Below the pieces are notes generated by a model that was not told the origin of the DNA, ran no database searches, and saw nothing but the letters and a program-made list of their open reading frames with translations. Made by a program: the position numbers and the translations under genes. A DNA stretch of 32,656 nt from Pseudomonadota bacterium (GTDB lineage: Bacteria > Pseudomonadota > Gammaproteobacteria > Burkholderiales > Burkholderiaceae_D): assembly GCA_030272785.1 (NCBI GenBank), contig JARXKM010000007.1:1-32656 (forward strand), given 5' to 3'. Shown in pieces: positions 149 through 30,803 of this stretch (positions within the stretch are counted from its first letter, which is position 1; each line of letters begins with the position of its first letter).

Positions 149-1222
149 TCAGTACGTTGTGCTCCCCCACGGGAAGAACCAGGTCAGCGGCTTGTCCACC
201 CGCGCGGCCCACGATTTTTCGTTGTGGCTGCCGCCTTCGGCCGCGTAGTAGAACAGGTCGACGCCGGTCAGATAGCCGCGCCTGAGCATGGCGTCGCGCA
301 TCAGCATCGTCTCGGCCAGGCCGTCGTCGTTGGTGCCGGCATCGATGTAGAACCTGACCGGCACGCGTGTCGGCAGCTTTGCGATCAACGCCTTGTCGTT
401 CCACCAGAACGAGCTGGAAACGCCGCCGGCTTTCGAAAAGACCTCCGGATGGTGCTGCGCGATCGCCACCGATGCGATGCCGCCCAGCGACGAGCCCATG
501 ATGGCGGTGGTGTCCTTGCCGGGCAGCGTGCGCAGCGTCTTGTCGATCAGCGGCTTGACCGTGTCGATGATGAACGCCTCGTACGCATCGAGCTTGCCGC
601 CGCCGTGCTTCGGGTCGCAACATGGGGTATATTCGGGAATGCGGTCCGGCGTATTGTCGATGCCGACCACGATCACCTCGTCCATCGCGCCGGTGGCGAT
701 CAGGCGGTTGACGGTTTCGTCGATGCCCCACTCGACGCCATACGCCGCGGTCTTCGCGTCGAACAGGTTCTGGCCGTCGTGCATGTACAGCACCGGATAG
801 CGCTTGGCGGCGTTTTCCTGGTAGCTCGGCGGCAGGTAGATGCGCAGCGAGCGGCTGTTCTTCAGCTGCGGCGATACGATGCCGGGCATGATCGACACCT
901 TGCCGAACGGCGCGCCGAAGAACGGATAGATGTCGACAGTGCTGCCGGCGGCGAGCTTGTAGACGCCGCCGATCGAGACCTGCTCGCCGAGCGCAGGCTT
1001 CATGCTCACCGCGCCCAGTTCGTCCGGCCACGAATAGCTCCACACATTGCCGGCGCCGGCCTTCGCGGCGGCGCCCTTCGACCACGACATCGGACCCTTG
1101 TCGCCGACGATGGCGACGCTGCCCTTGCCGGCATCGTAGTGCACGCGCACCGTGGTGGCGCCGGCATTGGCGATGAACAGCATCGGCAGTGCCGCCAGCG
1201 CGGCGATTTTAATCATCTTCAT
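149..1222 (-). CDS. Exported alpha/beta-hydrolase esterase (Fes/esterase D family, PF00756-like)
   Basis: 357 aa ORF with signal peptide (MKMIKIAALAALPMLFIANAGA), RSLRIYLPPSY, YPVLYMHDGQNLFD, nucleophile elbow GSSLGG, C-terminal GGSHNEKSW. Start overlaps upstream stop (ATGA). Confidence 0.88.
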   Translation of the reverse strand: MKMIKIAALAALPMLFIANAGATTVRVHYDAGKGSVAIVGDKGPMSWSKGAAAKAGAGNVWSYSWPDELGAVSMKPALGEQVSIGGVYKLAAGSTVDIYPFFGAPFGKVSIMPGIVSPQLKNSRSLRIYLPPSYQENAAKRYPVLYMHDGQNLFDAKTAAYGVEWGIDETVNRLIATGAMDEVIVVGIDNTPDRIPEYTPCCDPKHGGGKLDAYEAFIIDTVKPLIDKTLRTLPGKDTTAIMGSSLGGIASVAIAQHHPEVFSKAGGVSSSFWWNDKALIAKLPTRVPVRFYIDAGTNDDGLAETMLMRDAMLRRGYLTGVDLFYYAAEGGSHNEKSWAARVDKPLTWFFPWGSTTY

Positions 1223-6429: not shown

Positions 6430-8280
6430 TCAGATCTCGAGGATGACGACGGCGCGCGCCGGCAGCGTCAGCGTGTTGGTCAGGTCGTACGTTGTGCCGG
6501 TGAGGGCGTCGACGCCGGACCTGGCGCCTTTGAGCATCTCCTGGAAGCGCAACGTCGGCAGGCTGACCGCGGTGGCGTTCTTGTTGTAGGCGACCATGAC
6601 CGTCTTCTTGTCGCCGTAGCGGAAGTAGACCCAGGTATCGTTCTCGGGACCGAACTGCATCATCTTCCCGTGATGGATCACCGGCTGCGTCTTGCGCCAG
6701 TTGACCAGTTTGCTGACGAAGGCCTGCGCGTCGCGCTGCTTGCTGGTCAGCCCGGCCCCAGTGAAGGCGTTGACCTTGTCGCCGGCCCAGCCACCCGGGA
6801 AGTCGTGCCGGTAGCTGGCGTCGTCGCGGCCCTTGAAGGTGCTGGTCATCAGCACTTCGGTGCCGGTGTAGAACTGCGGGATGCGCGGCAAGGTCATGGT
6901 AAACACGAGCGCCATCTTGTACAGGTCGACGTCCTCGCCGAGCACGCTGAACATGCGCGGCACGTCGTGGTTACCTTCGAACAGGACCAGGTTGGCCGCA
7001 TCCGGATACAGGCGGTCCTGCGACAGCATTTCGTAGACGTCCTTGAAGCCGTCCTTGTCGTCCTTTTCGGCCAGGCCGGCGCGCATCGCATACATCATCG
7101 GGAAGTCCATCATGCTCGGCAGCGAGCCGGTGAAGCCGTCGGCGCTGACGGCGCCGCGCTGCCAGTGCGCCACCACCGCCGGCGCCTTGTGCCACTCTTC
7201 GCCGACCATGTTCAGGCGCGGGTATTCGGCCACCACGCGGCGCGAGAATTCGGTCAGGAAATCGGCGTCCGAATAGCCGTAGGTGTCGATGCGCAGGCCG
7301 GAAAGGTGGGCGTATTCGATCCACCAGATATTGTTCTGGATGAGGAAATTGGCCACCATTGGATTGGCCTGGTTCAGGTCGGGCATCTCGCTGGTGAACC
7401 AGCCGTGGGTGAAATTGAGCTTGTCGGCCTGGGAGCCGTACGTGTCCATGGTCGACATCCGGTGGTGCACGGTCGGTACGAATTTGCCTTCGTGGTTGGT
7501 CCAGTCGGGCGTCGGCATGTCCTTCATCCACCAGTGGCCGAGGCCAATGTGGGACAGCACGACGTCGTGGATCAAGCCGATGCCGTGCTTGCGCGCTTCG
7601 GCCGACAGGCGTACGTAGTCCTGGTTGCTGCCGTAACGCGGATCGATCTTGTAGTGGTCGGTGGCCGCATAGCCGTGGTATGAATAGTTGGGCATGTCGT
7701 TTTCCAGCAGGGGCGTCGGCCACAGCTGGGTGAAGCCCATCGCGGCGATGTAGCCGAGATGGTCGATGATGCCGGCGATGTCGCCGCCGTGGCGGCCCGA
7801 CCCGCTGGCGCGATCGAGCTTGTCGGCCATGCCCGCCACGCTGTCGTTGGCGGCGCTGCCGTTGGCGAAGCGGTCCGGCATCACCTGGTAGATCGCGTCG
7901 CTGCTGTTAAAGCTCACCCGCTGCGCCGAGCCGGGCTCACGCGCGAGCAGCTGGTAGGTGTATTTCACGGCGCTGGCGGCGTTGCGGAAGGTGATGTCGA
8001 ACTTGCCCGGCGCCGCCTGCTCGCTGACTGCCAGGTCGATGAACAGGTAGTTGCGGTTCGCCACCCGCGTGACGGCGTCGATGCGCACGCCCGGATAGGC
8101 GATCACGGGTTCGAGCTCGGCGATGTGCTGCCCGTGCACCATCAGCTGCAGCTTCTGGTGCTTCATGCCGGCCCACCAGAACGGCGGTTCGAGATGGTCG
8201 ATGCGGTAGTCCTGCGCCTGGCCTGCCGCAGTGGCGAGCAAGGCGATGGCGACGAATGCGGCGGCGAAGATTTTCTTCAT
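6430..8280 (-). CDS. Exported GH13 alpha-amylase family enzyme (neopullulanase/cyclomaltodextrinase-like, SusA-type)
   Basis: 616 aa, signal peptide; N-terminal IDHLEPPFWWAGMKHQKLQLMVHG (Cyc-maltodext_N-like); GH13 motifs DVVLSHIG, GLRIDTYGYSD, MVGEEW, EGNHDVPR. Confidence 0.92.
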   Translation of the reverse strand: MKKIFAAAFVAIALLATAAGQAQDYRIDHLEPPFWWAGMKHQKLQLMVHGQHIAELEPVIAYPGVRIDAVTRVANRNYLFIDLAVSEQAAPGKFDITFRNAASAVKYTYQLLAREPGSAQRVSFNSSDAIYQVMPDRFANGSAANDSVAGMADKLDRASGSGRHGGDIAGIIDHLGYIAAMGFTQLWPTPLLENDMPNYSYHGYAATDHYKIDPRYGSNQDYVRLSAEARKHGIGLIHDVVLSHIGLGHWWMKDMPTPDWTNHEGKFVPTVHHRMSTMDTYGSQADKLNFTHGWFTSEMPDLNQANPMVANFLIQNNIWWIEYAHLSGLRIDTYGYSDADFLTEFSRRVVAEYPRLNMVGEEWHKAPAVVAHWQRGAVSADGFTGSLPSMMDFPMMYAMRAGLAEKDDKDGFKDVYEMLSQDRLYPDAANLVLFEGNHDVPRMFSVLGEDVDLYKMALVFTMTLPRIPQFYTGTEVLMTSTFKGRDDASYRHDFPGGWAGDKVNAFTGAGLTSKQRDAQAFVSKLVNWRKTQPVIHHGKMMQFGPENDTWVYFRYGDKKTVMVAYNKNATAVSLPTLRFQEMLKGARSGVDALTGTTYDLTNTLTLPARAVVILEI

Positions 8281-8304: not shown

Positions 8305-9414
8305 TTAGGCGATGCGTTGCTCGGTGGCGGGGTCGAACAGCACCGCCTTGGAAAGGTCGAAGGCGAGGGTGAGCGGCTGGCCGGCGACGGCAGCGGCGCG
8401 CGGGTGGGTGCGGCAGGTGATGCGCACGCCGTTGACGACGGTGAACACCAAGGTATCGGGGCCGGTCGGCTCGATCATCTGGACGACGCAGTCGACCGTG
8501 GTGGGCTGGTAGGCGCCAGCGCGGGCGCCGGCGCGGGCGCTGTCGGCGTCGGTGATGTGTTCGGGCCGGATGCCGAGGATGACATCGGCGCCGCGCGCCA
8601 GCGCCGCCAGCTCCGGCGGCAGCGGCAGCACGGTGGTGGCGCCGCCATGCTCGAGCGCGAAGCCGCCGGCGTCGATGCGCCCGCGCAGGAAGTTCATCGA
8701 CGGCGAGCCGATGAAGCTGGCGACGAACAGGTTGTCGGGCCGGTCGTAGATCTGCTGCGGGGTGCCGAACTGCTGCACCACGCCGTCCTTCATGACGGCG
8801 ATCTTGTCGCCCAGGGTCATCGCCTCGATCTGGTCGTGAGTGACGTAGACGATGGTGCTGCCGAGACGCTGGTGCAGCAGCTTGATTTCGGCGCGCATCT
8901 CGACGCGCAGCTTGGCGTCGAGGTTCGACAGCGGTTCGTCGAACAGGAACAGGGCCGGGTCGCGGGCGATCGCGCGGCCCATGGCGACGCGCTGGCGCTG
9001 GCCGCCCGACAGCATGGCCGGCTTGCGGTCGAGCAGGTGGGTCATCTGCAGCGTGTCGGCGACCCGCTCGACGATTTTTTTCTGTTCGTTTTTCGGCACC
9101 TTGCGGATGCCGAGGCCGAACGAGATGTTTTCGCGCACCGTCATGGTCGGGTACAGCGCGTACGACTGGAACACCATCGCGATGTCGCGCGACTTGGGCG
9201 GCACGTCGTTGACGACCTTGCCGCCGATGGCGATCTGGCCGGCGCTGACGGTCTCCAGCCCGGCGATCATGTTCAGCAGGGTAGACTTGCCGCAGCCGGA
9301 ACCGCCCACCAGGATCAGGAATTCGCCGTCGGCGATGTCGAGGTCGATGCCTTTGAGGACCTCGGCGCCATTCGGGTAGACCTTGCGTACGCCGCGGATC
9401 GATAAACTCGCCAT
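8305..9414 (-). CDS. Sugar ABC transporter ATP-binding protein (MalK/UgpC family; GtsD-like)
   Basis: 369 aa from ATG at 9414 (the longer 451 aa ORF starts spuriously upstream). Walker A GGSGCGKST, signature LSGGQRQRVAMGRA, Walker B LFLFDEPLSNLDAKLR, TOBE-like C-terminus GIRPEHI. Confidence 0.95.
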   Translation of the reverse strand: MASLSIRGVRKVYPNGAEVLKGIDLDIADGEFLILVGGSGCGKSTLLNMIAGLETVSAGQIAIGGKVVNDVPPKSRDIAMVFQSYALYPTMTVRENISFGLGIRKVPKNEQKKIVERVADTLQMTHLLDRKPAMLSGGQRQRVAMGRAIARDPALFLFDEPLSNLDAKLRVEMRAEIKLLHQRLGSTIVYVTHDQIEAMTLGDKIAVMKDGVVQQFGTPQQIYDRPDNLFVASFIGSPSMNFLRGRIDAGGFALEHGGATTVLPLPPELAALARGADVILGIRPEHITDADSARAGARAGAYQPTTVDCVVQMIEPTGPDTLVFTVVNGVRITCRTHPRAAAVAGQPLTLAFDLSKAVLFDPATEQRIA

Positions 9415-9416
9415 TG

Positions 9417-10274
9417 CTAACCTTTCACCGCGCCGGCGGTCAGGCCGCGCACGAAGTATTTTCCCGCCACCAGGTACAGTGCCAGGGTCGGCAGCGCGGC
9501 GATGATCGCCGCCGCCATGTCGACGTTGTATTCCTTGACGCCGGTCGAGGTGTTGACCAGGTTGTTGAGCGCGACCGTCACCGGCTGCGCATCGGAGCCG
9601 CCGAACACCACGCCGAACAGGAAGTCGTTCCAGATCTGGGTGAACTGCCAGATGAAGCACACCATGAAGATCGGCAGCGACAGCGGGAAGATGATCTTCC
9701 GGTAGATCAGGAAGAAGCCGGCGCCGTCGATGCGGGCCGCCTTGATCAGCTCTTCGGGCACCGTCACGTAGTAATTACGGAAGAACATGGTGGTGAACGC
9801 CAGGCCGTAGACGATGTGGACGAACACCAGGCCGGTGGTGGTGTTGGCGATGTCGGCGATGCCGAGCAGGCGCGCCATCGGCAGGATCACCACCTGGAAC
9901 GGGATGAAGCAGCCGACCATCAGCGTGGTGAACAAGATTTCGGAACCGCGAAAGCGCCAGTGCGCCAGCACGTAGCCGTTGAGGGAGCCGATCAGGGTCG
10001 AGATCAGCACCGCAGGGATGGCCATGCGCAGCGAGTTGAAGAAGTACGGCGCCAGACCTTCGCAGGCGGCGCCGGTGCAGGCGCTGCCCCAGGCCTTGGC
10101 CCAGGCGGCGCCCGACAGCGAGGACGGCAGGTCGAGCAGGTCGCCGCTGCGGATCTGCTCGAGCGACTTGAACGAGGTGGCCAGCATCACGTACAGCGGC
10201 ACCAGGTAGTACAGCGCGCACAGTACCAGCAGCAGGTAGACGGCGGCGCGGCCGAAAGGGAACTTAGCGGCCAT
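9417..10274 (-). CDS. gtsC: Sugar ABC transporter permease (GtsC/MalG-like)
   Basis: 285 aa, multiple TM segments, EAA-loop-like PEELIKAARIDGAGFFLIYRKIIFPLSLPIF; operon position. Confidence 0.88.
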   Translation of the reverse strand: MAAKFPFGRAAVYLLLVLCALYYLVPLYVMLATSFKSLEQIRSGDLLDLPSSLSGAAWAKAWGSACTGAACEGLAPYFFNSLRMAIPAVLISTLIGSLNGYVLAHWRFRGSEILFTTLMVGCFIPFQVVILPMARLLGIADIANTTTGLVFVHIVYGLAFTTMFFRNYYVTVPEELIKAARIDGAGFFLIYRKIIFPLSLPIFMVCFIWQFTQIWNDFLFGVVFGGSDAQPVTVALNNLVNTSTGVKEYNVDMAAAIIAALPTLALYLVAGKYFVRGLTAGAVKG

Positions 10275-11166
10275 GGCGGGTGCCCCGGGTTTCGAGGTAC
10301 ATCATCGGCACCAGCACGGCCATGATGGTGGCGAGCATCATCATCGCCGAGGCGGCGCCGAGCCCGAGCTGGCCGCGCGAGAACGCATACTGGTACATGA
10401 ACACGGCCGGCACGGTCGACGAGGTGCCGGGGCCGCCGGCGGTGAGCGCCATCACCAGGTCGAAGCTCTTGATGGCGATGTGTGCCAGGATCAGGAACAC
10501 GCTGAAGAAGACCGGCCGCAGCGACGGGATGACGATGCGGCGGTAGATGGTCGGCAGCGAGGCGCCGTCGACCTGGGCGGCCTTGATGATGCTGTCGTCG
10601 ATGCCGCGCAGGCCGGCCAGGAACAGCGCCATGACGAAGCCGGACGACTGCCACACGCCGGCGATGACGACGGTGTAGATCGCCATGTCGGGGTTGATCA
10701 GCCAGTCGAAGGTGAAATTGGGGAAGCCCCAGCCGCGCACCATTTTTTCCAGTCCCAGTCCGGGGTTGAGTATCCATTTCCAGGCCGCGCCGGTGACGAT
10801 GAACGACAGCGCCATTGGGTACAGGTAGACGGCGCGCAGCGCGCCTTCCATGCGGATTTTCTGGTCGAGGAAGATCGCCATCAGCAGGCCGACGGCCAGG
10901 CAGATGACGACGAACAGCACGCCGAAGATGGCCAGGTTGTTGGCGGCGACCCACCAGCGGTCAAGATCGAACAGCGCTATATATTGGACAAAGCCGGCGT
11001 ACTCGAAGTTCGGCATCATGCGCGATTCGGTCAGCGACAGGAAGCCGGTGACGGCGATGAAGCCGTAGACGAACACCAGCGAGGCGATCACGGTGGGCGC
11101 CAGCACGAGGCGCGGCAGCCAGCGGTCGGCGAGGGCGGACAGCGCCATGGGCGGAATTGACGCCAC
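10264..11166 (-). CDS. gtsB: Sugar ABC transporter permease (GtsB/MalF-like)
   Basis: 300 aa (GTG start at 11166 or ATG at 11148), TM segments, EAA loop DDSIIKAAQVDGASLPTIYRRIVIPSLRPVF; overall resemblance to remembered Pseudomonas GtsB. Overlaps gtsC by 11 bp. Confidence 0.88.
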   Translation of the reverse strand: MASIPPMALSALADRWLPRLVLAPTVIASLVFVYGFIAVTGFLSLTESRMMPNFEYAGFVQYIALFDLDRWWVAANNLAIFGVLFVVICLAVGLLMAIFLDQKIRMEGALRAVYLYPMALSFIVTGAAWKWILNPGLGLEKMVRGWGFPNFTFDWLINPDMAIYTVVIAGVWQSSGFVMALFLAGLRGIDDSIIKAAQVDGASLPTIYRRIVIPSLRPVFFSVFLILAHIAIKSFDLVMALTAGGPGTSSTVPAVFMYQYAFSRGQLGLGAASAMMMLATIMAVLVPMMYLETRGTRHGR

Positions 11167-12420
11167 TTAGCGGGTCTTGGCGGCTTTGGCCAGCGCGGCC
11201 ACGGCGTCTTTCGACGTCATGGACGAATTCATGAACCGGGCGACGACGTCCATGATGGCGCCCTGCGCCGCGGAGCCGACCGCCATGTTGTGGGCCAGGC
11301 TGGGGACGAAGGCGCCGGCCTTGCTGCTCGCCTCGAGGTCGGCCATCGATTGCTGCGCGCAGCTGTCGAATTTCGCTTTCGGGACGCCGGCACGGACCGG
11401 GATCGAACCCTTGTTCAGGTTGAACACTTCCTGGAAGGCGGGACTCATGATGGCGCTGGCGAGCACCAGCTGCGATTTCTGGTCGTCCGGCTTCTTCTGC
11501 TTGAACATCAACATCGAGTCGATATTGAAGGTGAAGGCCTTGGCGGTGCCGGGCGCGGCGACGCACAGGAAATCGGTGCCGGGCTGCTTGCCGGCGGCGG
11601 TGAATTCGCCCTTGGCCCAGTCGCCCATGAACTGCATGCCGGCCTTGCCGTTGATGACCATGGCGGTGGCCAGGTTCCAGTCGCGCCCTGCGCTGTCGCG
11701 GTCGATATAGGTCTTGATGCGGGCCAGCGTGTCGAACGTCTTGACCATCAGCGGGCCGGTCAGGCTGGCCTGGTCGAGCTGGACCAGCGCCTTTTTATAG
11801 AACTCGGCGCCGCCCACGCCCAGCGCGACCGATTCGAAGATGGTCGTATCCTGCCATGGCTGGCCGCCGTGGGCGACGGCGACCAGGCCGGCTGCCTTGA
11901 TCTTGTCGGCGGCGGCGAAAAATTCGTCGAAGGTGGCCGGCGCCTTGGCAACGCCGGCCTTCTTCAGTACCGCCGGATTGACCCACAGCCAGTTCACGCG
12001 GTGCACATTGACCGGCGCGGCGACGTAGTGGCCCTTGTATTTCATGATGGTCACGACCGCCGGCGGCAGCAGGGTGTCCCATTTTTCGGCCAGCGCCACC
12101 GCGTCGATGTCGGCCAGTACGCCTTCCTGGCCCCATTCCTGGATGGCCGGGCCCTTGACCTGGGCGGCGGTCGGCGCGCCACCCGAGATCACGCGCGCCT
12201 TGAGCGCGGTGGCGGCGTTCTCGCCGGCGCCGCCGGCGACCGCGAAGTCCTTCCAGGCGACGCCCTTGGCGGCCAGCGTCTTCTTCAGTTCGGCCACCGA
12301 ACGGGCCTCGCCGCCCGACGTCCAGTAGTGCAGCACCTCCACCTGGGCGGCGTGGCCGGCGCCGCAGAACAGGGAAAGGACGGCGGCGGCGAGCAGTGTG
12401 CGGGCAAGGTGGCGATGCAT
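11167..12420 (-). CDS. gtsA: Glucose-type ABC transporter substrate-binding protein (GtsA-like)
   Basis: 417 aa from MHRHLARTLLAAAVLSLFCGAGHA (ATG at 12420). VEVLHYWTSGGEARSVAELKK, GPAIQEWGQEGVLADID, YVAAPVNVHRVNWLWVNP, VAHGGQPWQDTTIFESVALGVGG, FMGDWAKGEF, SPAFQEVFNLNKGSIPVRAG closely match the GtsA/glucose-binding family rather than MalE. Confidence 0.9.
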   Translation of the reverse strand: MHRHLARTLLAAAVLSLFCGAGHAAQVEVLHYWTSGGEARSVAELKKTLAAKGVAWKDFAVAGGAGENAATALKARVISGGAPTAAQVKGPAIQEWGQEGVLADIDAVALAEKWDTLLPPAVVTIMKYKGHYVAAPVNVHRVNWLWVNPAVLKKAGVAKAPATFDEFFAAADKIKAAGLVAVAHGGQPWQDTTIFESVALGVGGAEFYKKALVQLDQASLTGPLMVKTFDTLARIKTYIDRDSAGRDWNLATAMVINGKAGMQFMGDWAKGEFTAAGKQPGTDFLCVAAPGTAKAFTFNIDSMLMFKQKKPDDQKSQLVLASAIMSPAFQEVFNLNKGSIPVRAGVPKAKFDSCAQQSMADLEASSKAGAFVPSLAHNMAVGSAAQGAIMDVVARFMNSSMTSKDAVAALAKAAKTR

Positions 12421-12465
12421 GGTGTCTCCATAAGGTGGCGAGCTGATTATGTTGGCGTCGGATTT

Positions 12466-12480
12466 CGTAGTTCTGCTACA
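12466..12480. promoter_or_regulatory. Candidate operator-like site CGTAGTTCTGCTACA upstream of the gtsA operon
   Basis: Inverted repeat GTAG-N5-CTAC; 11/15 identical to the perfect palindrome at 12721-12735. Confidence 0.4.
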
Positions 12481-12720
12481 TCGCGTCATCGACGCGCAGC
12501 AGGGGCAAATCCGTCGCCACTGAGCTTCTTCACCTAAAAGCATACTATAGAAGCATGGGCATATCAATTGATTCACGCGATCGCGGGTGGCATGAATAGC
12601 TAGTTTAAGTACATATTGCCGCTTGGTCGTCAGGCCGCAGCGTCACCGCGCCGGCCGTGCTGGCGTTTCCTTGCACCAACATAGTGCTGCTTGCGTCGAA
12701 ATAGTGAAAATTTGCGTAAA

Positions 12721-12735
12721 TGTAGTCCGACTACA
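12721..12735. promoter_or_regulatory. Perfect 15-bp palindrome TGTAGTC-C-GACTACA, candidate regulator binding site
   Basis: Direct reading; arms TGTAGTC/GACTACA are exact reverse complements, in the divergent gtsA/TBDR intergenic region. Confidence 0.6.
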
Positions 12736-12751
12736 GGCCCTCCGGGTCGAT

Positions 12752-12770
12752 GTTGTAGCTGAAATACAAC
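12752..12770. promoter_or_regulatory. Inverted repeat GTTGTA-N7-TACAAC, candidate second operator
   Basis: 6-bp exact arms; its core TGTAGCTGAAATACA is 10/15 identical to the 12721 palindrome and lies 33 bp away centre to centre. Confidence 0.45.
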
Positions 12771-12838
12771 GCGCACAGGCTTCCCTATGAGTGCAGACGC
12801 CAAAAATGCCACAAATTCGTAGTGCGGCGCAACTCCCG

Positions 12839-12866
12839 TTGACAGTGCATCTAGTTTTAATACAAA
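12839..12866 (+). promoter_or_regulatory. Putative sigma70-type promoter for the TonB-dependent receptor gene
   Basis: TTGACA (12839-12844), 16 bp spacer, TACAAA (12861-12866), about 105 bp upstream of the TBDR ATG. Confidence 0.4.
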
Positions 12867-12971
12867 ATCTTGAGCAGAACGTCTTAGAACGTTTGCTTCG
12901 GGATCCCGGCTTAAAAGCTTTCCGGCTGTAGTCGCGGGACAAATGCGTTATTTAATGAATTGAGGGGACAC

Positions 12972-15725
12972 ATGAAAGTTTTCGCGAACAAGCAGTCGAA
13001 CGGTAAGCTCCGCCAGCGTACGGCATTCCCACTGCGCCCGGTGGCCGCCGGTTGCATGCTGTTGCTGTCGGCAATGGCGGTCAATGCGAGCGCCCAGGAA
13101 GTGGTGCCGGCGCCGGCCCAGAGCACGGCGATCGGCAACGGCGCCGAGCCGGCCGTTCAAAGCGTGGTGGTGTCCGGTATTCGCCGCGGCATCGAAGCGG
13201 CGATTTCAGTCAAGCGCAATTCGACCTCGATCGTGGAAGCCATTTCCGCCGAAGACATCGGCAAACTGCCGGATTCGAGCATCGCCGAATCGATCGCGCG
13301 CCTGCCAGGCCTGACCGCGCAAAACGTCGGCGGCCGTGCCGTCAACGTCAGCATCCGCGGCATGTCGGGCGACTTCTCGACCTCGCTGCTGAACGGCCGC
13401 GAGCAGGTCAGCACGGGCGACAACCGCAGCGTCGAATTCGACCAGTACCCGTCCGAGCTGCTGTCCGGCGTGGTGGTCTACAAGACCCCGGATTCCGCGC
13501 TGGTCGGCCAAGGCCTGTCCGGCACGGTCGATCTGCAGACGGTGCGTCCGCTGGCGTTCGGCCGCCGCACCGTGGCGGTCAACGCGCGCTCCGAGCGCGA
13601 CGGCCAGGGCACCAATTTCAAGGGTACGGGCAAGCGCTTCAGCGCCTCGTACATCGACCAGTTCGCCGACCGCACCATCGGCGTGGCGATCGGCGCGACC
13701 CGCTTCACGTCGGACCTGACCACGGCCAACGCCGAGAACTACGACGTCTACACCGGCAGCACCAATTACAACGGCCAGGATGTCAAGGTCGTCAACGGCT
13801 TCAAGCTGTTCAACAACACCAGCAAGAAGAGCCGCGACGGTGTGATGGCCGTGCTGGAATACCGTCCGAGCAAGGAATTCCACTCGCAGCTCGACCTGTT
13901 CTACTCGAAATTCGACGATGAAGTGATCCACCGCGGCCTCGAGCTGCAGGTCAACGACAGCTGGAAGACCGGCAACGGCGATCCATTCGTCGCCTCGCAG
14001 GCGCCGGTGCTGGCGCCTGGCGCGGTGATCTCCGGCGGCAAGCTCGTCAGCGGTACCTGGCTGGGCGTCAATCCGCTGTCGCGCCACATCTACGACCCGA
14101 CCAAGGACGAGCTGAGCTCGATCGGCTGGAACAACGAACTGCGCTTCGGCGACCAGTGGACCGCCACCGTCGACGTCAGCCAGTCGCGCGCCACCCGCAA
14201 GGAATCGATCTCGGAACTCGAAGCCGGCGTGGTCGGCCCGAACGGCCGTCCGCTGTCGGAAGCGGTGGGCGTAATCAACGGCAACACCATCGGATCGCTG
14301 CAGTACAACCACGGCGACGCGTCGCTGATCAAGCTGACCGATCCCGAGTCGTGGGGCCAGAACGGCTACACCAAGTCGATCTCGGTCAAGGACACCATCA
14401 AGGCCGGCCGCCTCGGCTTCCAAAAGGGCATGGACGGCATGATCAGCAAGGTCACGTTCGGCGTCAACTACTCCGAGCGCGCCAAGGACAAGAGCGCCGA
14501 AGAAGCCAAGCTGGTCCTGAAAACGGCACCGGGCGCCTTGCCGGCCGGCGCCGGTTCGGTGCTGGTGGGCGGTTCGCAGTTCAGCAGCATTTCCTTCGAT
14601 CCGGCGGCAGTGTTCCCATCGTCGTACAACCTGATCAAGAACGTCAACGGCGACATCCTGCTGAAGGACTGGAACGTGACGGAGAAGGTGTCGACGGCCT
14701 ACGTCAAAGGCGACCTCGACACCAAGGTCGGCGGCTTCGACCTGCGCGGCAATATCGGCGTGCAGATGGTCCGCACCGACCAGGCATCGACGGCGCCACA
14801 GGTGGACAACGCCAAGCAGGACGTGGTCGCGCTGCACACCGCCGGCAAGTCCTACACCGACTTCCTGCCAAGCATGAACCTGGTGTTCGACCTCGGCAAC
14901 GACCAGGCGCTGCGCTTCGGCCTGGCCAAGGTGCTGGCGCGGGCCCGCATGGACCAGTTGAGCGCGGCGCGCCGTTCGGAAATCGATGCCACCACGCACG
15001 TCTGGACCGGTAGCGGCGGCAACCCGCTGCTCGACCCGTTCCGCGCCAAGGCAGTCGACGTGTCGTACGAGAAGTACTTCGGCACCAAGGCTTACATCAG
15101 CGCCGCGGCGTTCTACAAGAAGCTCGACAGCTACATTTTCGACTTCAACGACAACGCCTACTCGTTCGCCGGCTTCCCGAACGTCACCGGCCGCACGTCG
15201 AGCACGATGATCGGCAAGTTCACCCAGCCGCGCAACGGCAACGGCGGCAGCATCAAGGGCGTCGAACTGGCGGCGTCGATGCCGTTCAGCGTGGTCTCGG
15301 ACATGCTCGACGGCTTCGGCATGCAGGCGAACTTCTCGCACAACGACAGCGCCATCAACCCGTTCGGCGATGCCGATGCGCGGCCGTTGCCTGGCCTGTC
15401 CAAGCAAGTGGCGAGCCTGACGTTCTACTACGAGAAGTTCGGCTTCTCGGCCCGCGTGGCAGCCCGTCATCGTTCCGACTTCCTCGGTGAAGTGCAAGGC
15501 TTCGGCGCGGCGCGCGAGTACCAGTACGTCAAGGGCAACACGGTCGCCGACCTGCAGCTCGGTTACGAGTTCCAGTCGGGCATGGCCAAGGGCGTGACGG
15601 TGCTGGTGCAGGTGCTCAACGCCAACAAGGCGCTCGAGCAGCAGTACCAGGCGTCGACCGGCACCATCACCAAGACGGACGACTTCGGCCGTACCATCCT
15701 GATCGGCGCGAACTACAAGTTCTAA
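12972..15725 (+). CDS. TonB-dependent receptor (TonB-Xanth-Caul/TIGR01782-like), probable outer-membrane oligosaccharide transporter
   Basis: 917 aa; ATG at 12972 preceded by GAGGGGA. Signal peptide, VVVSGIRRGIEAAISVKRNSTSIVEAISAEDIGKLPDSSIAESIARLPGLTAQ, SIRGMSGDFSTSLLNGREQVS plug motifs, C-terminal FGRTILIGANYKF. Confidence 0.95.
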   Translation: MKVFANKQSNGKLRQRTAFPLRPVAAGCMLLLSAMAVNASAQEVVPAPAQSTAIGNGAEPAVQSVVVSGIRRGIEAAISVKRNSTSIVEAISAEDIGKLPDSSIAESIARLPGLTAQNVGGRAVNVSIRGMSGDFSTSLLNGREQVSTGDNRSVEFDQYPSELLSGVVVYKTPDSALVGQGLSGTVDLQTVRPLAFGRRTVAVNARSERDGQGTNFKGTGKRFSASYIDQFADRTIGVAIGATRFTSDLTTANAENYDVYTGSTNYNGQDVKVVNGFKLFNNTSKKSRDGVMAVLEYRPSKEFHSQLDLFYSKFDDEVIHRGLELQVNDSWKTGNGDPFVASQAPVLAPGAVISGGKLVSGTWLGVNPLSRHIYDPTKDELSSIGWNNELRFGDQWTATVDVSQSRATRKESISELEAGVVGPNGRPLSEAVGVINGNTIGSLQYNHGDASLIKLTDPESWGQNGYTKSISVKDTIKAGRLGFQKGMDGMISKVTFGVNYSERAKDKSAEEAKLVLKTAPGALPAGAGSVLVGGSQFSSISFDPAAVFPSSYNLIKNVNGDILLKDWNVTEKVSTAYVKGDLDTKVGGFDLRGNIGVQMVRTDQASTAPQVDNAKQDVVALHTAGKSYTDFLPSMNLVFDLGNDQALRFGLAKVLARARMDQLSAARRSEIDATTHVWTGSGGNPLLDPFRAKAVDVSYEKYFGTKAYISAAAFYKKLDSYIFDFNDNAYSFAGFPNVTGRTSSTMIGKFTQPRNGNGGSIKGVELAASMPFSVVSDMLDGFGMQANFSHNDSAINPFGDADARPLPGLSKQVASLTFYYEKFGFSARVAARHRSDFLGEVQGFGAAREYQYVKGNTVADLQLGYEFQSGMAKGVTVLVQVLNANKALEQQYQASTGTITKTDDFGRTILIGANYKF

Positions 15726-15746
15726 GCGGTCGGTGCATTACAATTG

Positions 15747-15784
15747 AACCCCTTGTCGTTGCGAAACGGCCGGGGGTTTTTTTT
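15747..15784 (+). terminator. Rho-independent terminator after the TBDR gene
   Basis: AACCCC TT GTCGTT GCGA AACGGC C GGGGGTT hairpin followed by a T8 tract. Confidence 0.8.
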
Positions 15785-15823
15785 AGGTTTTTTTCACGTT
15801 TTTTCACTCAGAACTGACCCGCC

Positions 15824-17338
15824 ATGTCGTTTCCCCATATCCGCAACATCGTCATCGTCGGCGGCGGCACCGCCGGCTGGATGACCGCCGCCGCCCTGTC
15901 CAAGGTGCTGACCGGCAACTGGACCATCCGCCTGATCGAATCCGAGGAAATCGGCACCGTCGGGGTGGGCGAGGCCACCATCCCGCTGATCAACGTCTAC
16001 AACCGTGCGCTTGGCATCGACGAAGACGAGTTCATGCGCGCCACCAACGGCACCTTCAAGCTGGGCATCGAGTTCGTCAACTGGGGCAAGCTGGGCGACT
16101 CCTATATGCACGGCTTCGGCAACCTCGGCCCGGACATCGGCATCACCAAATTCCACCAGTACTGGCTCAAGGCCCAGCAGGACGGCTACGCACTGGACAT
16201 CGAAAACTATTCGATCTGCTCGCTCGCCTCGCGCCATGCCAAGTTCATGCGCGCGCGCCCGGACCTGGGCAATTCGCCGCTCAGCGAGATCGCCCACGCC
16301 TTCCATTTCGACGCCAACCTGTACGCCGCCTTCCTGCGCAAGTACGCCGAGCAGCGCGGCGTGATCCGCATCGAGGGCAAGGTCAGCGGCGCCACCACGC
16401 GCCCGGCCGACGGCTTCATCGAGGCGGTGGTGATGGACAACGGCGAGCGCATCGAGGGCGACCTGTTCATCGACTGCTCCGGCTTTCGCGGCCTGCTGAT
16501 CGAACAGACGCTGCATGCCGGCTACGACGACTGGAGCCACTGGCTGCCGTGCGACCGCGCCTGGGCGGTGCCGTGCGAATCGAGCGGCCCGCTGCTGCCG
16601 TACACGCGCTCGACCGCGCGCGACGCCGGCTGGCAATGGCGCATTCCGCTGCAAAACCGCATCGGCAACGGCCACGTCTACAGCAGCAAATTCAGCGACG
16701 ACGCCAGCGCCGCCGACATCCTGATGCGCAACCTGGACGGCAAGGCGCTGGCCGAGCCGCGCCAGCTCAAGTTCGTCACCGGCCGGCGCAAGAAATTCTG
16801 GGACAAGAACTGCGTGGCGATCGGCCTGTCGAGCGGGTTCATGGAGCCGCTCGAGTCGACCAGCATCCACCTGATCCAGGCCAGCATCGCGCGCCTGACG
16901 ACGTTCTTCCCGGACCAGGGGTTCGAGCAGGCCGACATCGACGAATTCAACCGCCAGGCGCATTTCGAAGTCGAGAAGATCCGCGACTTCCTGATCCTGC
17001 ACTACAAGGCGACCAGCCGCACCGATACCGACTTCTGGAACTACTGCCGCACCATGGAGATCCCGGAGTCGCTGCGCAACAAGATGGCGCTCTACGAGAG
17101 CAATGGCCGGCTGTTTCGCGAGGCCAGCGAGATGTTCTCGGAGATCAGCTGGTTCGAGGTGATGCACGGACAGGGCATCAAGCCGCGCGGCTACCATCCG
17201 CTGGTCGATGCGCTGGCCGACGGCAAGATCCGCAGCTTCCTCGAGAACGTCAGCACCACCACCCAGCGCTGCGTCGAGGCGATGCCGAGCCATGCCGACT
17301 TCGTGCGCGAGAATTGCGCGGCGCCGCAGTCGAAGTAG
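15824..17338 (+). CDS. Flavin-dependent tryptophan halogenase family protein (PF04820-like)
   Basis: 504 aa; GGGTAGW FAD motif, Lys79 in NGTFKLGIEFVNW, WQWRIPLQNRIGNG (WxWxIP), SSGFMEPLESTSIHLI. Confidence 0.93.
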   Translation: MSFPHIRNIVIVGGGTAGWMTAAALSKVLTGNWTIRLIESEEIGTVGVGEATIPLINVYNRALGIDEDEFMRATNGTFKLGIEFVNWGKLGDSYMHGFGNLGPDIGITKFHQYWLKAQQDGYALDIENYSICSLASRHAKFMRARPDLGNSPLSEIAHAFHFDANLYAAFLRKYAEQRGVIRIEGKVSGATTRPADGFIEAVVMDNGERIEGDLFIDCSGFRGLLIEQTLHAGYDDWSHWLPCDRAWAVPCESSGPLLPYTRSTARDAGWQWRIPLQNRIGNGHVYSSKFSDDASAADILMRNLDGKALAEPRQLKFVTGRRKKFWDKNCVAIGLSSGFMEPLESTSIHLIQASIARLTTFFPDQGFEQADIDEFNRQAHFEVEKIRDFLILHYKATSRTDTDFWNYCRTMEIPESLRNKMALYESNGRLFREASEMFSEISWFEVMHGQGIKPRGYHPLVDALADGKIRSFLENVSTTTQRCVEAMPSHADFVRENCAAPQSK

Positions 17339-17341
17339 GCG

Positions 17342-18049
17342 ATGTTCAATCCGCGTGCGCGCATCAGCGAGGTGCCGATCGGCGACGGCCAGTCGTGCAT
17401 CGTGGTCGACGACTGCATGCTTGACCCGCGGGCGCTGCGCGCGCTGGCGATCGAGCACGCCGCCGGCTTCGACGCGGCGCCGCGCAATGCCTTCCCCGGC
17501 CTCGAGCTGCCGATGCCGGCGGCGTTTTCCGGCCTGCTCGACGAGTTCTTCATGCAGCACGTGCGGCGCCGGCTGGGCGCGCGCCGCACGCTCGACGTGC
17601 ACAGCCGCCTGTCGCTGGTGACCTTGCCGGGCGCGCAGCTGCGGCCGCTGCAGCGCGTCTGCCATCGCGACCGCTTCGGCGTCGCCGCCGACCAGCTGGC
17701 CGCCGCCTGCGTGCTGTACCTGTTCGACCAGCCGGCGCTGGGCGGCACCAGTTTCTTCCGGCCGCGCCAGTCGGCGGCGCAGACCAACGACATGATGCGC
17801 ACGCTGGGCGGCATGGATACGGCCGCGGCCAGCGCCATGCTCGGCGCCGAACCTGGCTACCTGTTGGCGTCGAACGCCTGGTTCGAGCTGGTGCACACCG
17901 TGCCGGCGGCATGGAACCGCGCCATCTTCTACGACGGCAGCATTTTCCACTCCAGCCACGTCGGCGCGCCCGAGCTGCTGAGCGCCGATCCGGCGCGCGG
18001 CCGCCTCACCCTCAACGGCTTTTTTGTCTGTCGCCGGCAGGCCGGCTGA
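17342..18049 (+). CDS. DUF6445-like protein with 2OG-Fe(II)-oxygenase-like motif set
   Basis: 235 aa; starts 3 bp after the halogenase stop. CHRDRFG (HxD), YLFDQPALGGTSFF, IFHSSHV, GRLTLNGFF. Confidence 0.75.
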   Translation: MFNPRARISEVPIGDGQSCIVVDDCMLDPRALRALAIEHAAGFDAAPRNAFPGLELPMPAAFSGLLDEFFMQHVRRRLGARRTLDVHSRLSLVTLPGAQLRPLQRVCHRDRFGVAADQLAAACVLYLFDQPALGGTSFFRPRQSAAQTNDMMRTLGGMDTAAASAMLGAEPGYLLASNAWFELVHTVPAAWNRAIFYDGSIFHSSHVGAPELLSADPARGRLTLNGFFVCRRQAG

Positions 18050-18081: not shown

Positions 18082-20052
18082 ATGCCATCAATCCGTCTAC
18101 GCCTTGCCGCCAGCCTGTTTACCGGCGCGTTTGCCACGTTGGCCGTTTGCGTCGCCGCGCAGGCCGCGGCGCCGGCGCTGGAGCAGTTTTTCCGCACGCC
18201 GGCGATCCGCATCGCCAGCCTGTCGCCGAACGGGCGCTACCTGGCGTCAACGGCGATGCTGGGCGGCTCGGTTCAGCTCACCGTGGTCGACCTGCAGACG
18301 CGCGAAGCGAAAAAGATCGCCGGCTATGCCGATGTCGACATCTTCCGGATCGAGTGGATCAGCAACGATCGGCTGGCGTTCAACGTCATCGATCGCACCA
18401 GCGAACAGAATGCGTCGTACAGCGGCCTGTTCGCCATCGACCGCGACGGCACCCGCGAGCGCGCCTTGTCGGCGATGCCGGCCGCGCTGATGCTGCGCGC
18501 GCGCCAGTCGTTCAACGACGTCGCCGCCGAGCCGGTGGCGTACGACCTGGTGCAGCCGCTGCACGACGGCTCGGCCGGCATCATCGCGCTCGGCTACTTC
18601 ATCAACGGCGACATCGTGCCGTACCGGATCGACAGCGTCAGCGGGCGGCGCAAGGCGATCGACTTCAGCGTGACCGGCCGGGCGCACGACTTCGTGTTCG
18701 ATGCCGCGAACCGCTTGCGGGTGGTGACCGCCTACATGGACAGCGAAGGCGCCAGGTCGGCCGTCTGGTACCGCGACGACGAGGCGCAGCCTTGGCGCAA
18801 GCTGGCCGAGCATGCCACCCTGAACCCGCCATTTCGCGCCATCGGCATCGATCCGGACGGCTTGCTGGTGGTCGCCGGCGTGCATGGCCGCGATGGCGTG
18901 TTCCGCTACAACATGGCTGACAACAAGGTCGGCGCGCTGGTCGCCGCCAGCGCCGACGCGGACGTCAACGACGGCCTGGTGTTCGATCCGCAGACCCACA
19001 AGCTGATCGGCGTGCGGGTGCGCTCCGAGCCGCCGCACACCGAGTGGCTCGACCCGCAGTACGCGGCGCTCCAGCAGGGCCTCGACCAGGCCGCGCCGGA
19101 CATGGTCAGCCAGGTCACGCCGGGCGGCGACGCCGCGTCGCCGCGCCTGGTGTTCAGCTCGTCGTCGACCGATCCGGGGCGCTACCTGCGCTACGACCCG
19201 GCCACCAAGCAGCTGCTGCCGCTGCTGACCCGGATGCCGTGGATCGTGCCGGCGCAGATGTCGCCCAAGCTGGTGTTCGACTACAAGGCGCGCGACGGCC
19301 TGCCGATTCCATCCTACCTGACCTTGCCCAAGGGCCGCCCGGTCAACCGGCTGCCGCTGATCGTGCTGCCGCACGGCGGTCCGGCCGCGCGCGACGATGC
19401 CAGTTTCGACCCGCAGGTGCAGTTTCTGGCCAGCCGCGGCTACGCCGTGCTGCAGCCGCAGTTCCGCGGCTCGACCGGTTTTGGCGAGGCCCACTTCCGC
19501 AAAGGCTTTCGCCAATGGGGCCTGCGCATGCAGGACGACCTGAGCGACGGCATCGCCGACCTGGTAAAGCAAGGCGCGGTCGACCCGGCGCGCGTATGCA
19601 TCATGGGCGCCAGCTACGGCGGCTACGCGGCGGCGATGGGCCTGGTGAAGGATCCGCAGCAGTACCGCTGCGGCATCGACCTGCTCGGCGTGACCGACAT
19701 CGGCTACCTGTTTACCATCGGCCGATGGGAGGGCAACAAGGTGGTCGCCTTCCATTCGAAAATCACCATCGGCGACCCGGGCCAGATGCGCGACCAGTTT
19801 GTGGCGACGTCGCCGGCGCTGCAGGCGGCCAGCATCCGCGCGCCGCTGTTCATGGCCTACGGCGAGCACGATACGCGCGTGCCGCTGGTGCATGGCGAAG
19901 ACCTGCGCGACGCGCTCAAGAAGCACGGCAAGGTCTACGAGTGGATGACTTTTCCGGACGAGGAGCACGGTTTTACCATCGAAGCGAACCGCTTCCGGCT
20001 GTACCGCGCGATCGACGCGTTCCTGGCAAAGTACAATCCGGCCGGCGCCTGA
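18082..20052 (+). CDS. Exported S9-family peptidase (prolyl oligopeptidase-type)
   Basis: 656 aa from MPSIRLRLAASLFTGAFATLAVCVAAQAAA (the ORF from 17911 is extended upstream). Beta-propeller N-terminus, RGSTGFGEAHFRKGFRQWG, nucleophile GASYGGYAAAM, GEHDTRVP, DEEHGF. Confidence 0.92.
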   Translation: MPSIRLRLAASLFTGAFATLAVCVAAQAAAPALEQFFRTPAIRIASLSPNGRYLASTAMLGGSVQLTVVDLQTREAKKIAGYADVDIFRIEWISNDRLAFNVIDRTSEQNASYSGLFAIDRDGTRERALSAMPAALMLRARQSFNDVAAEPVAYDLVQPLHDGSAGIIALGYFINGDIVPYRIDSVSGRRKAIDFSVTGRAHDFVFDAANRLRVVTAYMDSEGARSAVWYRDDEAQPWRKLAEHATLNPPFRAIGIDPDGLLVVAGVHGRDGVFRYNMADNKVGALVAASADADVNDGLVFDPQTHKLIGVRVRSEPPHTEWLDPQYAALQQGLDQAAPDMVSQVTPGGDAASPRLVFSSSSTDPGRYLRYDPATKQLLPLLTRMPWIVPAQMSPKLVFDYKARDGLPIPSYLTLPKGRPVNRLPLIVLPHGGPAARDDASFDPQVQFLASRGYAVLQPQFRGSTGFGEAHFRKGFRQWGLRMQDDLSDGIADLVKQGAVDPARVCIMGASYGGYAAAMGLVKDPQQYRCGIDLLGVTDIGYLFTIGRWEGNKVVAFHSKITIGDPGQMRDQFVATSPALQAASIRAPLFMAYGEHDTRVPLVHGEDLRDALKKHGKVYEWMTFPDEEHGFTIEANRFRLYRAIDAFLAKYNPAGA

Positions 20053-20136
20053 GACGCGCGGCACTGCACGAAAAAGGCACGGCGCAAGCGGCAACAGAGT
20101 AAACTGTAGGTTTAGCACCGATAAGTGAGCACTCCA

Positions 20137-21990
20137 ATGTCCGATACCCCCCTTCCGCAGTTTTCCGATCTGAACCTCTCCGCCGCCGTCCTCAAGGTGA
20201 TCAAAGAGGTCGGCTACGAGACGCCTTCGCCGATCCAGGCCGCCACCATTCCGCTGCTGCTGGCCAATCGCGACGTGTTGGGGCAGGCCCAGACCGGGAC
20301 CGGCAAGACCGCCGCCTTCGCGCTGCCAATCCTGTCGCGCATCGACATCAAGCAGCACTCGCCGCAGGCGCTGGTGCTGGCGCCGACGCGCGAACTGGCG
20401 ATCCAGGTCGCCGAAGCGTTCCAGACCTACGCCGCGCACATCAAGGATTTCCACGTGCTGCCGATCTACGGCGGCCAGAGCTACGGCCCGCAGCTGTCGG
20501 CCTTGCGCCGCGGCGTGCACGTCATCGTCGGCACGCCGGGGCGCGTCATCGACCACCTCGACAAGGGCTCGCTCGACCTGTCCAAGCTGAAAACGCTGGT
20601 GCTCGACGAGGCCGACGAGATGCTGCGCATGGGCTTCATCGACGACGTCGAACAGATCCTGCAAAAAACGCCTGAGTCGCGCCAGACCGCGCTGTTCTCG
20701 GCCACCATGCCGTCGGCGATCAAGCGCATCGCCAAGACCTACCTGCGCGACCCGGCCGAAGTGACCGTGGCCGCCAAGACCGGCACCGCCGACAATATCC
20801 GCCAGCGTTACTGGATGGTGAGCGGCATGCAGAAGCTCGAGGCGCTCACCCGCATCCTCGAAGCGGAGCCGTTCGACGGCATGATCATCTTCGCCCGCAC
20901 CAAGCTGGGCACCGAGGAACTGGCCGGCAAGCTGCAGGCGCGCGGCTTCGCGGCGACCGCCATCAACGGCGACATGCAGCAAACCCAGCGCGAGCGCACC
21001 ATCGCCCAGCTCAAGGACGGCAAGATCGACATCCTGGTCGCCACTGATGTCGCCGCGCGCGGTCTCGACGTCGAGCGCATCAGCCACGTGATCAACTACG
21101 ACGTGCCGTCCGATCCCGAAAGCTACACCCACCGCATCGGCCGCACCGGCCGCGCCGGCCGCAGCGGCGAGGCGATCCTGTTCATCACCCCGCGCGAGCA
21201 GGGCCTGCTGAAAGCGATCGAGCGCGCCACCCGCCAGCCGGTGTCGCCACTGACCCTGCCGACGGTGAAAACCATCAACGACGTGCGCATCGCCAAATTC
21301 AAGGACCAGATCACCGAGACCCTGGCCGCCGGCGGCATCGACGTGTTCCGCACCCTGATCGAGGAATACGAGCGCGAACTGAACGTGCCGGCGGTGGAAA
21401 TCGCCGCGGCGCTGGCCAAGCTGGCGCGCGGCGACGTGCCGCTGCTGCTGGAAAAACCGGACCGCGCCGCCAAGGCCGCGCCGGTGTGGGAAGAGCGTCC
21501 GGCCCGCGCGCCGCGCGCCGACGCGCCTATGCGCCCGGACCGCGGCGCCGCACCGATGCGTCCGGACCGCGGCGATGCGCCGGCGTTCAAGCGCGAGCGC
21601 GTGGCGCGCCCGGCCGAAGACGGCATGGGCACCTTCCGCATCGAAGTAGGCCATTCGCACGGCGTCAAGCCGGGCAACATCGTCGGCGCCATCGCCAACG
21701 AGGCGGGCATCGAGTCGAAGTACATCGGCCGCATCGAGATCTACGACGACTACAGCACGCTCGACCTGCCGGTCGACATGCCGCCTGACCTGATCGATCA
21801 CCTGAAAACGGTGTGGGTGGCGGGCCAGCAGCTGAACATCACGCGCGACGGCGAACCGCCGGCGGTGAAAAAGGCCGGCGCTTCCACCGGCCCGAAGAAT
21901 CCCGGCGATCGCCGCTTTGCCGAGAAGGCCGGCTACGCCAAGGGGCCGAAGAAGGAACATCGCAAGGGTCCGCCGCCGAAAGCGGAATAA
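20137..21990 (+). CDS. deaD: DEAD-box ATP-dependent RNA helicase (DeaD/CsdA-like) with DbpA-type C-terminal RNA-binding domain
   Basis: AQTGTGKT, PTRELAIQ, TPGRVIDHL, DEAD, SAT, HRIGRTGRAGRSG; C-terminal FRIEVGHSHGVKPGNIVGAIANEAGIESKYIGRIEIYDDYSTLDLP. GTG at 20125 is an alternative start. Confidence 0.94.
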   Translation: MSDTPLPQFSDLNLSAAVLKVIKEVGYETPSPIQAATIPLLLANRDVLGQAQTGTGKTAAFALPILSRIDIKQHSPQALVLAPTRELAIQVAEAFQTYAAHIKDFHVLPIYGGQSYGPQLSALRRGVHVIVGTPGRVIDHLDKGSLDLSKLKTLVLDEADEMLRMGFIDDVEQILQKTPESRQTALFSATMPSAIKRIAKTYLRDPAEVTVAAKTGTADNIRQRYWMVSGMQKLEALTRILEAEPFDGMIIFARTKLGTEELAGKLQARGFAATAINGDMQQTQRERTIAQLKDGKIDILVATDVAARGLDVERISHVINYDVPSDPESYTHRIGRTGRAGRSGEAILFITPREQGLLKAIERATRQPVSPLTLPTVKTINDVRIAKFKDQITETLAAGGIDVFRTLIEEYERELNVPAVEIAAALAKLARGDVPLLLEKPDRAAKAAPVWEERPARAPRADAPMRPDRGAAPMRPDRGDAPAFKRERVARPAEDGMGTFRIEVGHSHGVKPGNIVGAIANEAGIESKYIGRIEIYDDYSTLDLPVDMPPDLIDHLKTVWVAGQQLNITRDGEPPAVKKAGASTGPKNPGDRRFAEKAGYAKGPKKEHRKGPPPKAE

Positions 21991-21996
21991 CTCGTT

Positions 21997-22028
21997 AAAA
22001 AGGGCGCCTCGATGGCGCCCTTTTTTTT
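21997..22028. terminator. Strong, probably bidirectional intrinsic terminator between deaD and the convergent M28 peptidase gene
   Basis: Perfect 12-bp stem AAAAAGGGCGCC-TCGAT-GGCGCCCTTTTT with T8 tract on + and A tract on the other side. Confidence 0.92.

Positions 22029-27754: not shown

Positions 27755-30803
<3,049 letters not shown>

Follow-up and report, generated by a model that had tools for sequence, protein, structure and literature searches.

A flavin-dependent halogenase and a DUF6445 protein with a predicted 2-oxoglutarate dioxygenase fold accompany a TonB-dependent receptor in an alpha-glucan locus

Why should a gene for aromatic halogenation accompany a nutrient receptor? Coupling of this kind would be unexpected for sugar uptake, and the characterisation of BrvH and the Xanthomonas enzymes left open the native role of the large group of flavin-dependent halogenases (FDHs) linked to TonB-dependent receptors (TBDRs). 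The question is posed here by a locus from a Pseudomonadota bacterium of the Burkholderiaceae_D (assembly GCA_030272785.1, contig JARXKM010000007.1, positions 1 to 32,656; this stretch of 32,656 nucleotides is referred to below as the window), in which genes for a TBDR, an FDH and a protein of the family DUF6445 follow one another among alpha-glucan genes. We propose, at what we judge to be about an even chance, that in this locus of the carbohydrate-utilisation (CUT) type the receptor is co-transcribed with an accessory, cytosolic pair of enzymes, FDH and DUF6445, that performs an oxidative tailoring reaction linked to the TBDR.

A preliminary description, made from the sequence, had placed three co-directional genes with a 3-bp FDH-DUF6445 gap inside an alpha-glucan locus, and the open reading frames and family scores bore this out: all three lie on the + strand at 12972-18049 and score well over the curated cut-offs. 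In the profile search the receptor reached 590 bits against TIGR01782 (cut-off 310), placing it in the TonB-Xanth-Caul type. The gap between TBDR and FDH is 98 bp, with no terminator-like site seen in it, and that between DUF6445 and the following S9 peptidase gene is about 32 bp; the single strong terminator (21997-22025) lies 3' of a DEAD helicase gene, and the three genes are probably co-transcribed. The setting is a complete alpha-glucan locus of the CUT type, with the TBDR, degrading enzymes, an inner-membrane transporter and, just outside the window, a candidate sugar-related regulator (a glucokinase-RpiR fusion). The genome (5.4 Mb, 82.8% complete) is that of a Massilia or a near relative, since its FDH shares 92% identity with the enzyme of Massilia psychrophila (JCM 30813), where TBDR, FDH and DUF6445 also follow one another in this order. 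Between the window and M. psychrophila, differences at codon positions 1/2/3 were 0.126/0.073/0.279 for the TBDR, 0.046/0.040/0.225 for the FDH and 0.153/0.136/0.323 for DUF6445, a pattern of purifying selection on all three genes.

Among solved FDHs, the closest relatives of the window enzyme were Xcc4156 (6y1w, 547 bits), 9luq (543 bits) and BrvH (6frl, 500 bits), with PrnA at 308 bits, which places it in the BrvH/Xcc4156 clade. Its motifs are intact (GxGxxG at G13-G18, catalytic K79, WxWxIP at W270-P275 and catalytic E344-S345); K79, H96, F98, W270, W272, E344 and S345 were invariant in all 158 relatives of more than 45% identity, and K79 and E344-S345 align to K79 and E346-S347 of PrnA. 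With phmmer, PrnA could be aligned as far as its residue 431, and the segment of PrnA past this residue binds the amino and carboxyl groups of tryptophan. In the corresponding region the clade of the window FDH has near-invariant W443, G449 and Q450. With no alignment over the tryptophan-binding segment and different residues conserved at 443-450, the enzyme does not appear to be a free-tryptophan halogenase of the PrnA type. BrvH brominates free indole at C3, with very low activity, and leaves tryptophan unmodified; Xcc4156 likewise accepts indoles and not tryptophan, and no native substrate is known for BrvH or for the Xanthomonas FDHs. By analogy with these relatives, the window FDH would be expected to halogenate with FADH2 and halide. 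A second type of FDH-family protein was also observed, represented by 58 proteins that share at most 45% identity with the window enzyme; most of them have Ala at the position of S345, 42 of the 58 retain K79, and the type may include non-halogenases.

The DUF6445 protein, for which the preliminary description had guessed an oxygenase function, gave no sequence match to any solved oxygenase, and no paper naming the family was found in the literature searched, which left out most subscription journals. Ten columns were invariant among 51 aligned members, among them H108, D110, H203 and R221, which correspond to the HxD...H metal triad and downstream Arg of the 2-oxoglutarate (2OG)/Fe(II) superfamily. 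The AlphaFold (AF2) model had a mean pLDDT of 96.8, and a Foldseek search of the PDB with this model gave 42 matches at E <=0.001, with TM-scores of 0.4-0.5 and OGFOD1 as the best (E 2e-6). All of the top matches were 2OG oxygenases, with protein prolyl hydroxylases first (OGFOD1, the Pseudomonas putida prolyl hydroxylase P4H alone and with EF-Tu, PHD2 and others), and both the model and the matches point to a double-stranded beta-helix fold. Because of the invariant HxD...H...R pattern, the confident model and these matches, we assign DUF6445, on the predicted structure, to the 2OG/Fe(II) dioxygenases of the prolyl-hydroxylase type. This evidence settles the fold class and not the substrate; turnover of 2OG would be expected from the assignment, and the oxygenase guess is supported.

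The recurrent pairing of FDHs with TBDRs, also supposed in the preliminary description, was seen in a neighbourhood survey of 80 named loci, which are the best FDH matches and not a random draw: a recognised TBDR lay within 5 kb of the FDH in at least 68 of them, and within 600 bp in 55. The count of 68 is a lower bound, since gene calls were made with a custom caller and the TBDR profile misses other TBDR subfamilies, which some of the remaining loci adjoin. One genome (G651) had 13 of its 14 listed FDHs within 5 kb of a TIGR01782 TBDR compared with 8% expected, though clustered FDHs are not independent, and an FDH beside 10 of its 24 TIGR01782 TBDRs. The window's own genome had four of six FDHs within 5 kb of such a receptor, two of the four in a TBDR-FDH-SapC-Cupin_8-FDH cassette that adjoins a gene of glycoside hydrolase (GH) family GH16. 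Sugar-utilisation genes were found within 8 kb in 50 of the 80 loci, spanning Burkholderiales, Lysobacterales, Steroidobacterales, Sphingomonadales and Alteromonadales; 24 of the 50 were of the alpha-glucan type, and the sugar contexts of FDH-linked TBDRs included GH13/GH31, GH3, GH1, GH16 and GH43. No paper tying such FDHs to TBDR sugar loci was found in the literature searched. Tandem arrays of three to five FDHs, often divergent from one TBDR, were also seen in Caulobacterales, Maricaulales and others (L093, L096, L110, L113, L114, L115, L117, L118, L128 and L131).

Linkage was also assessed from the side of DUF6445, in 43 loci comprising the window and 42 stretches around strong matches. 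An FDH was present in 32 of these, a window-like TBDR in 27, SapC (PF07277) in 16 and Cupin_8 (PF13621) in 12, and the fullest order was TBDR-FDH-SapC-Cupin_8-FDH-DUF6445, of which the window holds a short form. An FDH lay no more than six genes away in 47 of 56 distinct DUF6445 genes, directly upstream in 24 and then mostly with a gap below 10 bp. Among 399 sampled genomes of the phylum, all 22 with a strong DUF6445 were within the 63 with a strong FDH (hypergeometric 6e-20, with counts made by hand and relatedness ignored). Weak DUF6445 matches (about 20-66 bits; L054-L071), which formed a separate branch with no adjacent FDH, were excluded from this set. SapC (L010:8800-9510 in the window's genome, and 27 relatives), a regular part of the fuller cassettes, has an AlphaFold model with a pLDDT of 96.1 and a best PDB match of only E 0.38, and possibly represents an unseen fold; this model and match did not support SapC as the missing flavin reductase.

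The FDHs also co-evolve with the receptors. On the TBDR tree, FDH adjacency was clustered (12 changes, compared with 29-41 in 200 shuffles), and distances in 73 TBDR-FDH pairs were correlated (Mantel r 0.50) well outside the within-order permutations (mean 0.17, maximum 0.30, 999 draws). Where the context was clearly one of alpha- or of beta-glucosides (37 pairs), it changed twice on the TBDR tree and four times on the FDH tree, with shuffled minima of 8 and 7. Because of the distance correlation and the few context changes on both trees, the FDH follows the receptor and the receptor's sugar class beyond taxonomic order; close relatives stay in these data, which makes the strength an upper estimate. 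When 89 FDH-linked TIGR01782 TBDRs were compared with 43 unlinked ones, no Trp, Tyr or His was conserved solely in the linked set, and general clade signatures alone were found (D401, R143, N387 and G181). A fixed halogenation site on the receptor is therefore disfavoured; variable sites or sites on a partner are possible.

Evidence for sugar control comes from a putative operator upstream of the TBDR promoter (Table 1), whose 15-bp core recurs unchanged in M. psychrophila; two other genomes have near-identical sites between the genes for TBDR and cyclomaltodextrinase. A search of the window's genome with TGTAGTNNNACTACA gave 12721-12735 as the sole zero-mismatch match. One of the matches with a single mismatch precedes a GH13 gene of the same contig, and such matches were not commoner than in a reversed control, so the case rests on the perfect, conserved site and single weak sites are untrustworthy. 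The site is of the type bound by HexR and RccR, both of them RpiR-family regulators, and lies upstream of its target as in their regulons. The core matches, in its half-sites (TGTAGT-N3-ACTACA), the two 15-bp RccR sites upstream of aceE, TGTAGTTTTACTACT and TGTAGTAAAACTACA (PMC5489143), and resembles the HexR site TGTAATTAAATTACA (PMC11906056). A glucokinase-RpiR fusion, rather than HexR or RccR, is the likely regulator; two such fusions are encoded near the alpha-glucan genes (33559-35409 and 41749-43617 of the contig that contains the window, C126, or L007:3560-5410 and 11750-13618). A LacI operator was rejected, as the conserved palindrome fits the RpiR type. Co-regulation of the TBDR operon with sugar genes is plausible from this arrangement. 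A precursor peptide inside the cassette was also rejected: there is no space and no candidate, the conserved upstream stretch being read as operators and promoter, and no precursor peptide or scaffold gene of a ribosomally synthesised and post-translationally modified peptide or other biosynthetic cluster stands beside the FDH among the window genes.

Together with the enzyme classes, intact catalytic residues, operon layout, recurrent linkage and co-evolution, the operator suggests the following mechanism. The FDH, for which a housekeeping reductase would supply FADH2, would add bromine or chlorine to an electron-rich aromatic group, and DUF6445 would oxidise the same molecule or its partner. 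The reaction would be cytosolic, because neither protein has a visible signal peptide, and the shared substrate would belong to the TBDR system, not to general sugar catabolism. As to what this substrate is, a small aromatic compound that the TBDR system carries, or that signals through it, has somewhat less than an even chance; it fits the chemistry of the relatives, and leaves the tie to sugar class without obvious explanation. A TBDR-system polypeptide modified before export is rather unlikely, and something else altogether is unlikely to the same degree.

Several points weigh against the proposal. The 80 FDH loci were selected as best matches, and FDHs and TBDRs from related genomes are non-independent samples. 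In genome G110 the syntenic order is phosphoglucomutase, two major facilitator superfamily (MFS) genes, DEAD, TBDR, operator, cyclomaltodextrinase, debranching enzyme and glycosidase; this alpha-glucan locus carries the same operator and has no FDH, DUF6445 or S9 peptidase, its TBDR (45% identical to that of the window) being followed directly by DEAD. Nine of the 56 strong DUF6445 genes had no FDH within six genes. One plasmid (L263; NC_014818.1, 122083-122811) has DUF6445 flanked by GH115 and GH28 genes, within a GH92/GH2/GH115/GH28 locus whose listed stretch includes a TBDR and lacks an FDH, and from such FDH-less loci it follows that DUF6445 may have a job of its own. Because of the G110 locus, the FDH-DUF6445 pair is an added function that is unneeded for glucan use, and other cassettes go with other sugars. 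The link to carbohydrate uptake suggested in the preliminary description therefore holds in so far as the TBDRs concerned serve many sugars and co-regulation is plausible, and is not supported for alpha-glucan as such; with the linkage and the oxygenase guess upheld, the earlier interpretation was supported in part.

The narrower forms of the proposal, as well as the rivals to it, can be weighed on the same data. If the pair tailored a small molecule, it would halogenate and oxidise an aromatic indole or phenol metabolite that the cell secretes, retakes or senses via the TBDR. The indole chemistry of BrvH and the clade's own residues in place of the tryptophan-binding segment of PrnA argue for this, and tandem arrays with as many as four or five FDHs for one TBDR fit stepwise tailoring; however, genes for an aromatic scaffold are absent from the cassette, a general aromatic signal would not predict an FDH tree that follows sugar context, and the indole activity of BrvH is very low, so that we hold this form only tentatively. 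Alternatively, residues of the TBDR itself or of a partner might be modified prior to export by the FDH together with the 2OG enzymes (DUF6445, joined by Cupin_8 in the fuller cassettes), which would adjust ligand binding or shield the receptor. The TBDR is the sole near-constant partner and the FDH tracks its phylogeny, protein prolyl hydroxylases (OGFOD1, PHD2, EF-Tu-bound P4H and Tpa1) are among the folds nearest to DUF6445, and an FDH acting on peptidyl Trp, ChlH, has been described (PMC12518702). Nevertheless, the absence of aromatic residues confined to linked receptors, the FDHs that adjoin other TBDR subfamilies and TM-scores too low for transfer of a substrate make protein modification unlikely. 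The preliminary description had also offered a surface or peptide residue and an amino-sugar ligand as substrates; for the former, a search for an aromatic residue at a fixed place in FDH-linked TBDRs alone gave none, and for the latter the analysis found no support.

It is also conceivable that the enzymes merely hitch-hike, spreading by gene transfer as neighbours of TBDR loci with no function related to the receptor. The cassette is indeed absent from the syntenic G110 locus, and a TBDR-DUF6445-FDH operon, with the enzyme order swapped, stands beside a GH43 gene on a mobilizable plasmid of Sphingomonas sanguinis (L262; NZ_CP079204.1, 11061-16162), which shows that the module is able to move. 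Purifying selection, invariant catalytic residues, co-evolution beyond order and the genome-wide placement beside TBDRs all speak against hitch-hiking, which we consider very improbable. Slightly more improbable is a DUF6445 that has retained the dioxygenase fold and lost catalysis: the family has no characterised member and is unnamed in the literature searched, yet the predicted metal and 2OG ligands are among just ten invariant columns and the fold is that of active 2OG oxygenases. A TBDR-linked tailoring pair is thus the reading that we retain. More broadly, proteobacterial TBDR loci may encode a system devoted to oxidative modification, made up of between one and five FDHs, the DUF6445 and Cupin_8 oxygenases and SapC, and acting on a substrate specific to the TBDR. 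Such chemistry, coupled to a receptor, would be undescribed so far; this wider proposal is doubtful rather than probable. The survey makes the role of the halogenases testable, as it provides a co-evolving receptor, an identifiable dioxygenase partner, apparent sugar control and a natural comparison locus that lacks the pair.

The remaining features of the locus are collected in Table 1. The S9 peptidase, which is not at the corresponding place in M. psychrophila, shows a weak likeness to a lasso-peptide isopeptidase model, with a score far under that model's cut-off; an S9 peptidase adjoins the FDH also in L074, L087 and L134. The divergent operon further encodes, at 1219-4128, a second, six-hairpin-type glycosidase (969 aa) with weak Pfam matches, probably a poorly modelled glucoamylase-like enzyme. 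Past the window edge, the same contig continues with the two glucokinase-RpiR fusions, a pullulanase-type protein, GH13 and a PTR2 transporter.

Table 1. Genes and candidate regulatory sites of the window, with positions, strand and supporting matches.
Feature	Position	Strand	Evidence
TonB-dependent receptor, TonB-Xanth-Caul type; signal-peptide-like N-terminus, plug, barrel	12972-15725	+	TIGR01782, PF07715, PF00593
Flavin-dependent halogenase, BrvH/Xcc4156 clade; no signal peptide visible	15824-17338	+	PF04820, 663 bits
DUF6445 protein, predicted PHD-type 2OG/Fe(II) dioxygenase fold; no signal peptide visible	17342-18049	+	PF20043, 239 bits
S9 peptidase, signal-peptide-like N-terminus	18082-20052	+	PF00326, 140 bits
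DEAD-box RNA helicase, DbpA C-terminal domain; apparent end of transcription unit	20125-21990	+	PF00270, PF03880
17-bp palindrome ATGTAGTCCGACTACAG, candidate RpiR-type (HexR/RccR-like) operator	12720-12736	.	perfect 15-bp core TGTAGTCCGACTACA at 12721-12735, between divergent operons
Second, weaker operator-like repeat TGTAGCTGAAATACA, conserved	12754-12768	.	footprint alignment with L072
Sigma-70-like promoter TTGACA-18-CAAAAT, upstream of TBDR	12839-12868	+	conserved in M. psychrophila except one -10 base
Sugar ABC substrate-binding protein, first gene of divergent operon	11167-12426	-	PF01547
ABC permease	10264-11166	-	position only
ABC permease	9417-10274	-	PF00528
MalK-type ATPase	8305-9414	-	PF00005, PF17912
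Cyclomaltodextrinase	6430-8280	-	PF00128, PF09087, PF10438
Glycogen-debranching-type glycosidase	4128-6428	-	PF06202
GH31 alpha-glucosidase	25266-27695	+	
Sugar MFS	27755-29086	+	
Phosphoglucomutase	29172-30803	+	
GH13	30827-32500	+	

The enzyme superfamilies and the CUT type of locus are known already; no description of their combination, of the fold class of DUF6445 or of the co-evolution with the TBDR was found in the literature searched, and these appear to be new. With PrnA, RebH and Thal, the window FDH shares the FAD-binding motif, the catalytic Lys and Glu and WxWxIP, whereas its alignment to PrnA stops before the segment that holds tryptophan there. BrvH and Xcc4156 align over the full length and have the catalytic motifs in common; the window enzyme differs in that its gene is followed by DUF6445 within an alpha-glucan locus. 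DUF6445 shares fold class, HxD...H triad and downstream Arg with 2OG oxygenases of the PHD/P4H type (OGFOD1, PHD2, P. putida P4H and Tpa1) but lacks their sequence likeness, and its TM-scores to them are modest. Like the CUT loci of Xanthomonas and Caulobacter, for example the maltose-induced XCC2469 locus and MalA (PMC1790865), the window combines a TBDR with degrading enzymes, an inner-membrane transporter and a sugar regulator, whereas its TBDR is followed by FDH and DUF6445 and halogenases go unmentioned in the main text of that study. Finally, within the HexR/RccR regulons the candidate operator shares the half-sites of its 15-bp core with the RccR sites, and it differs in its target, which here is a TBDR operon.

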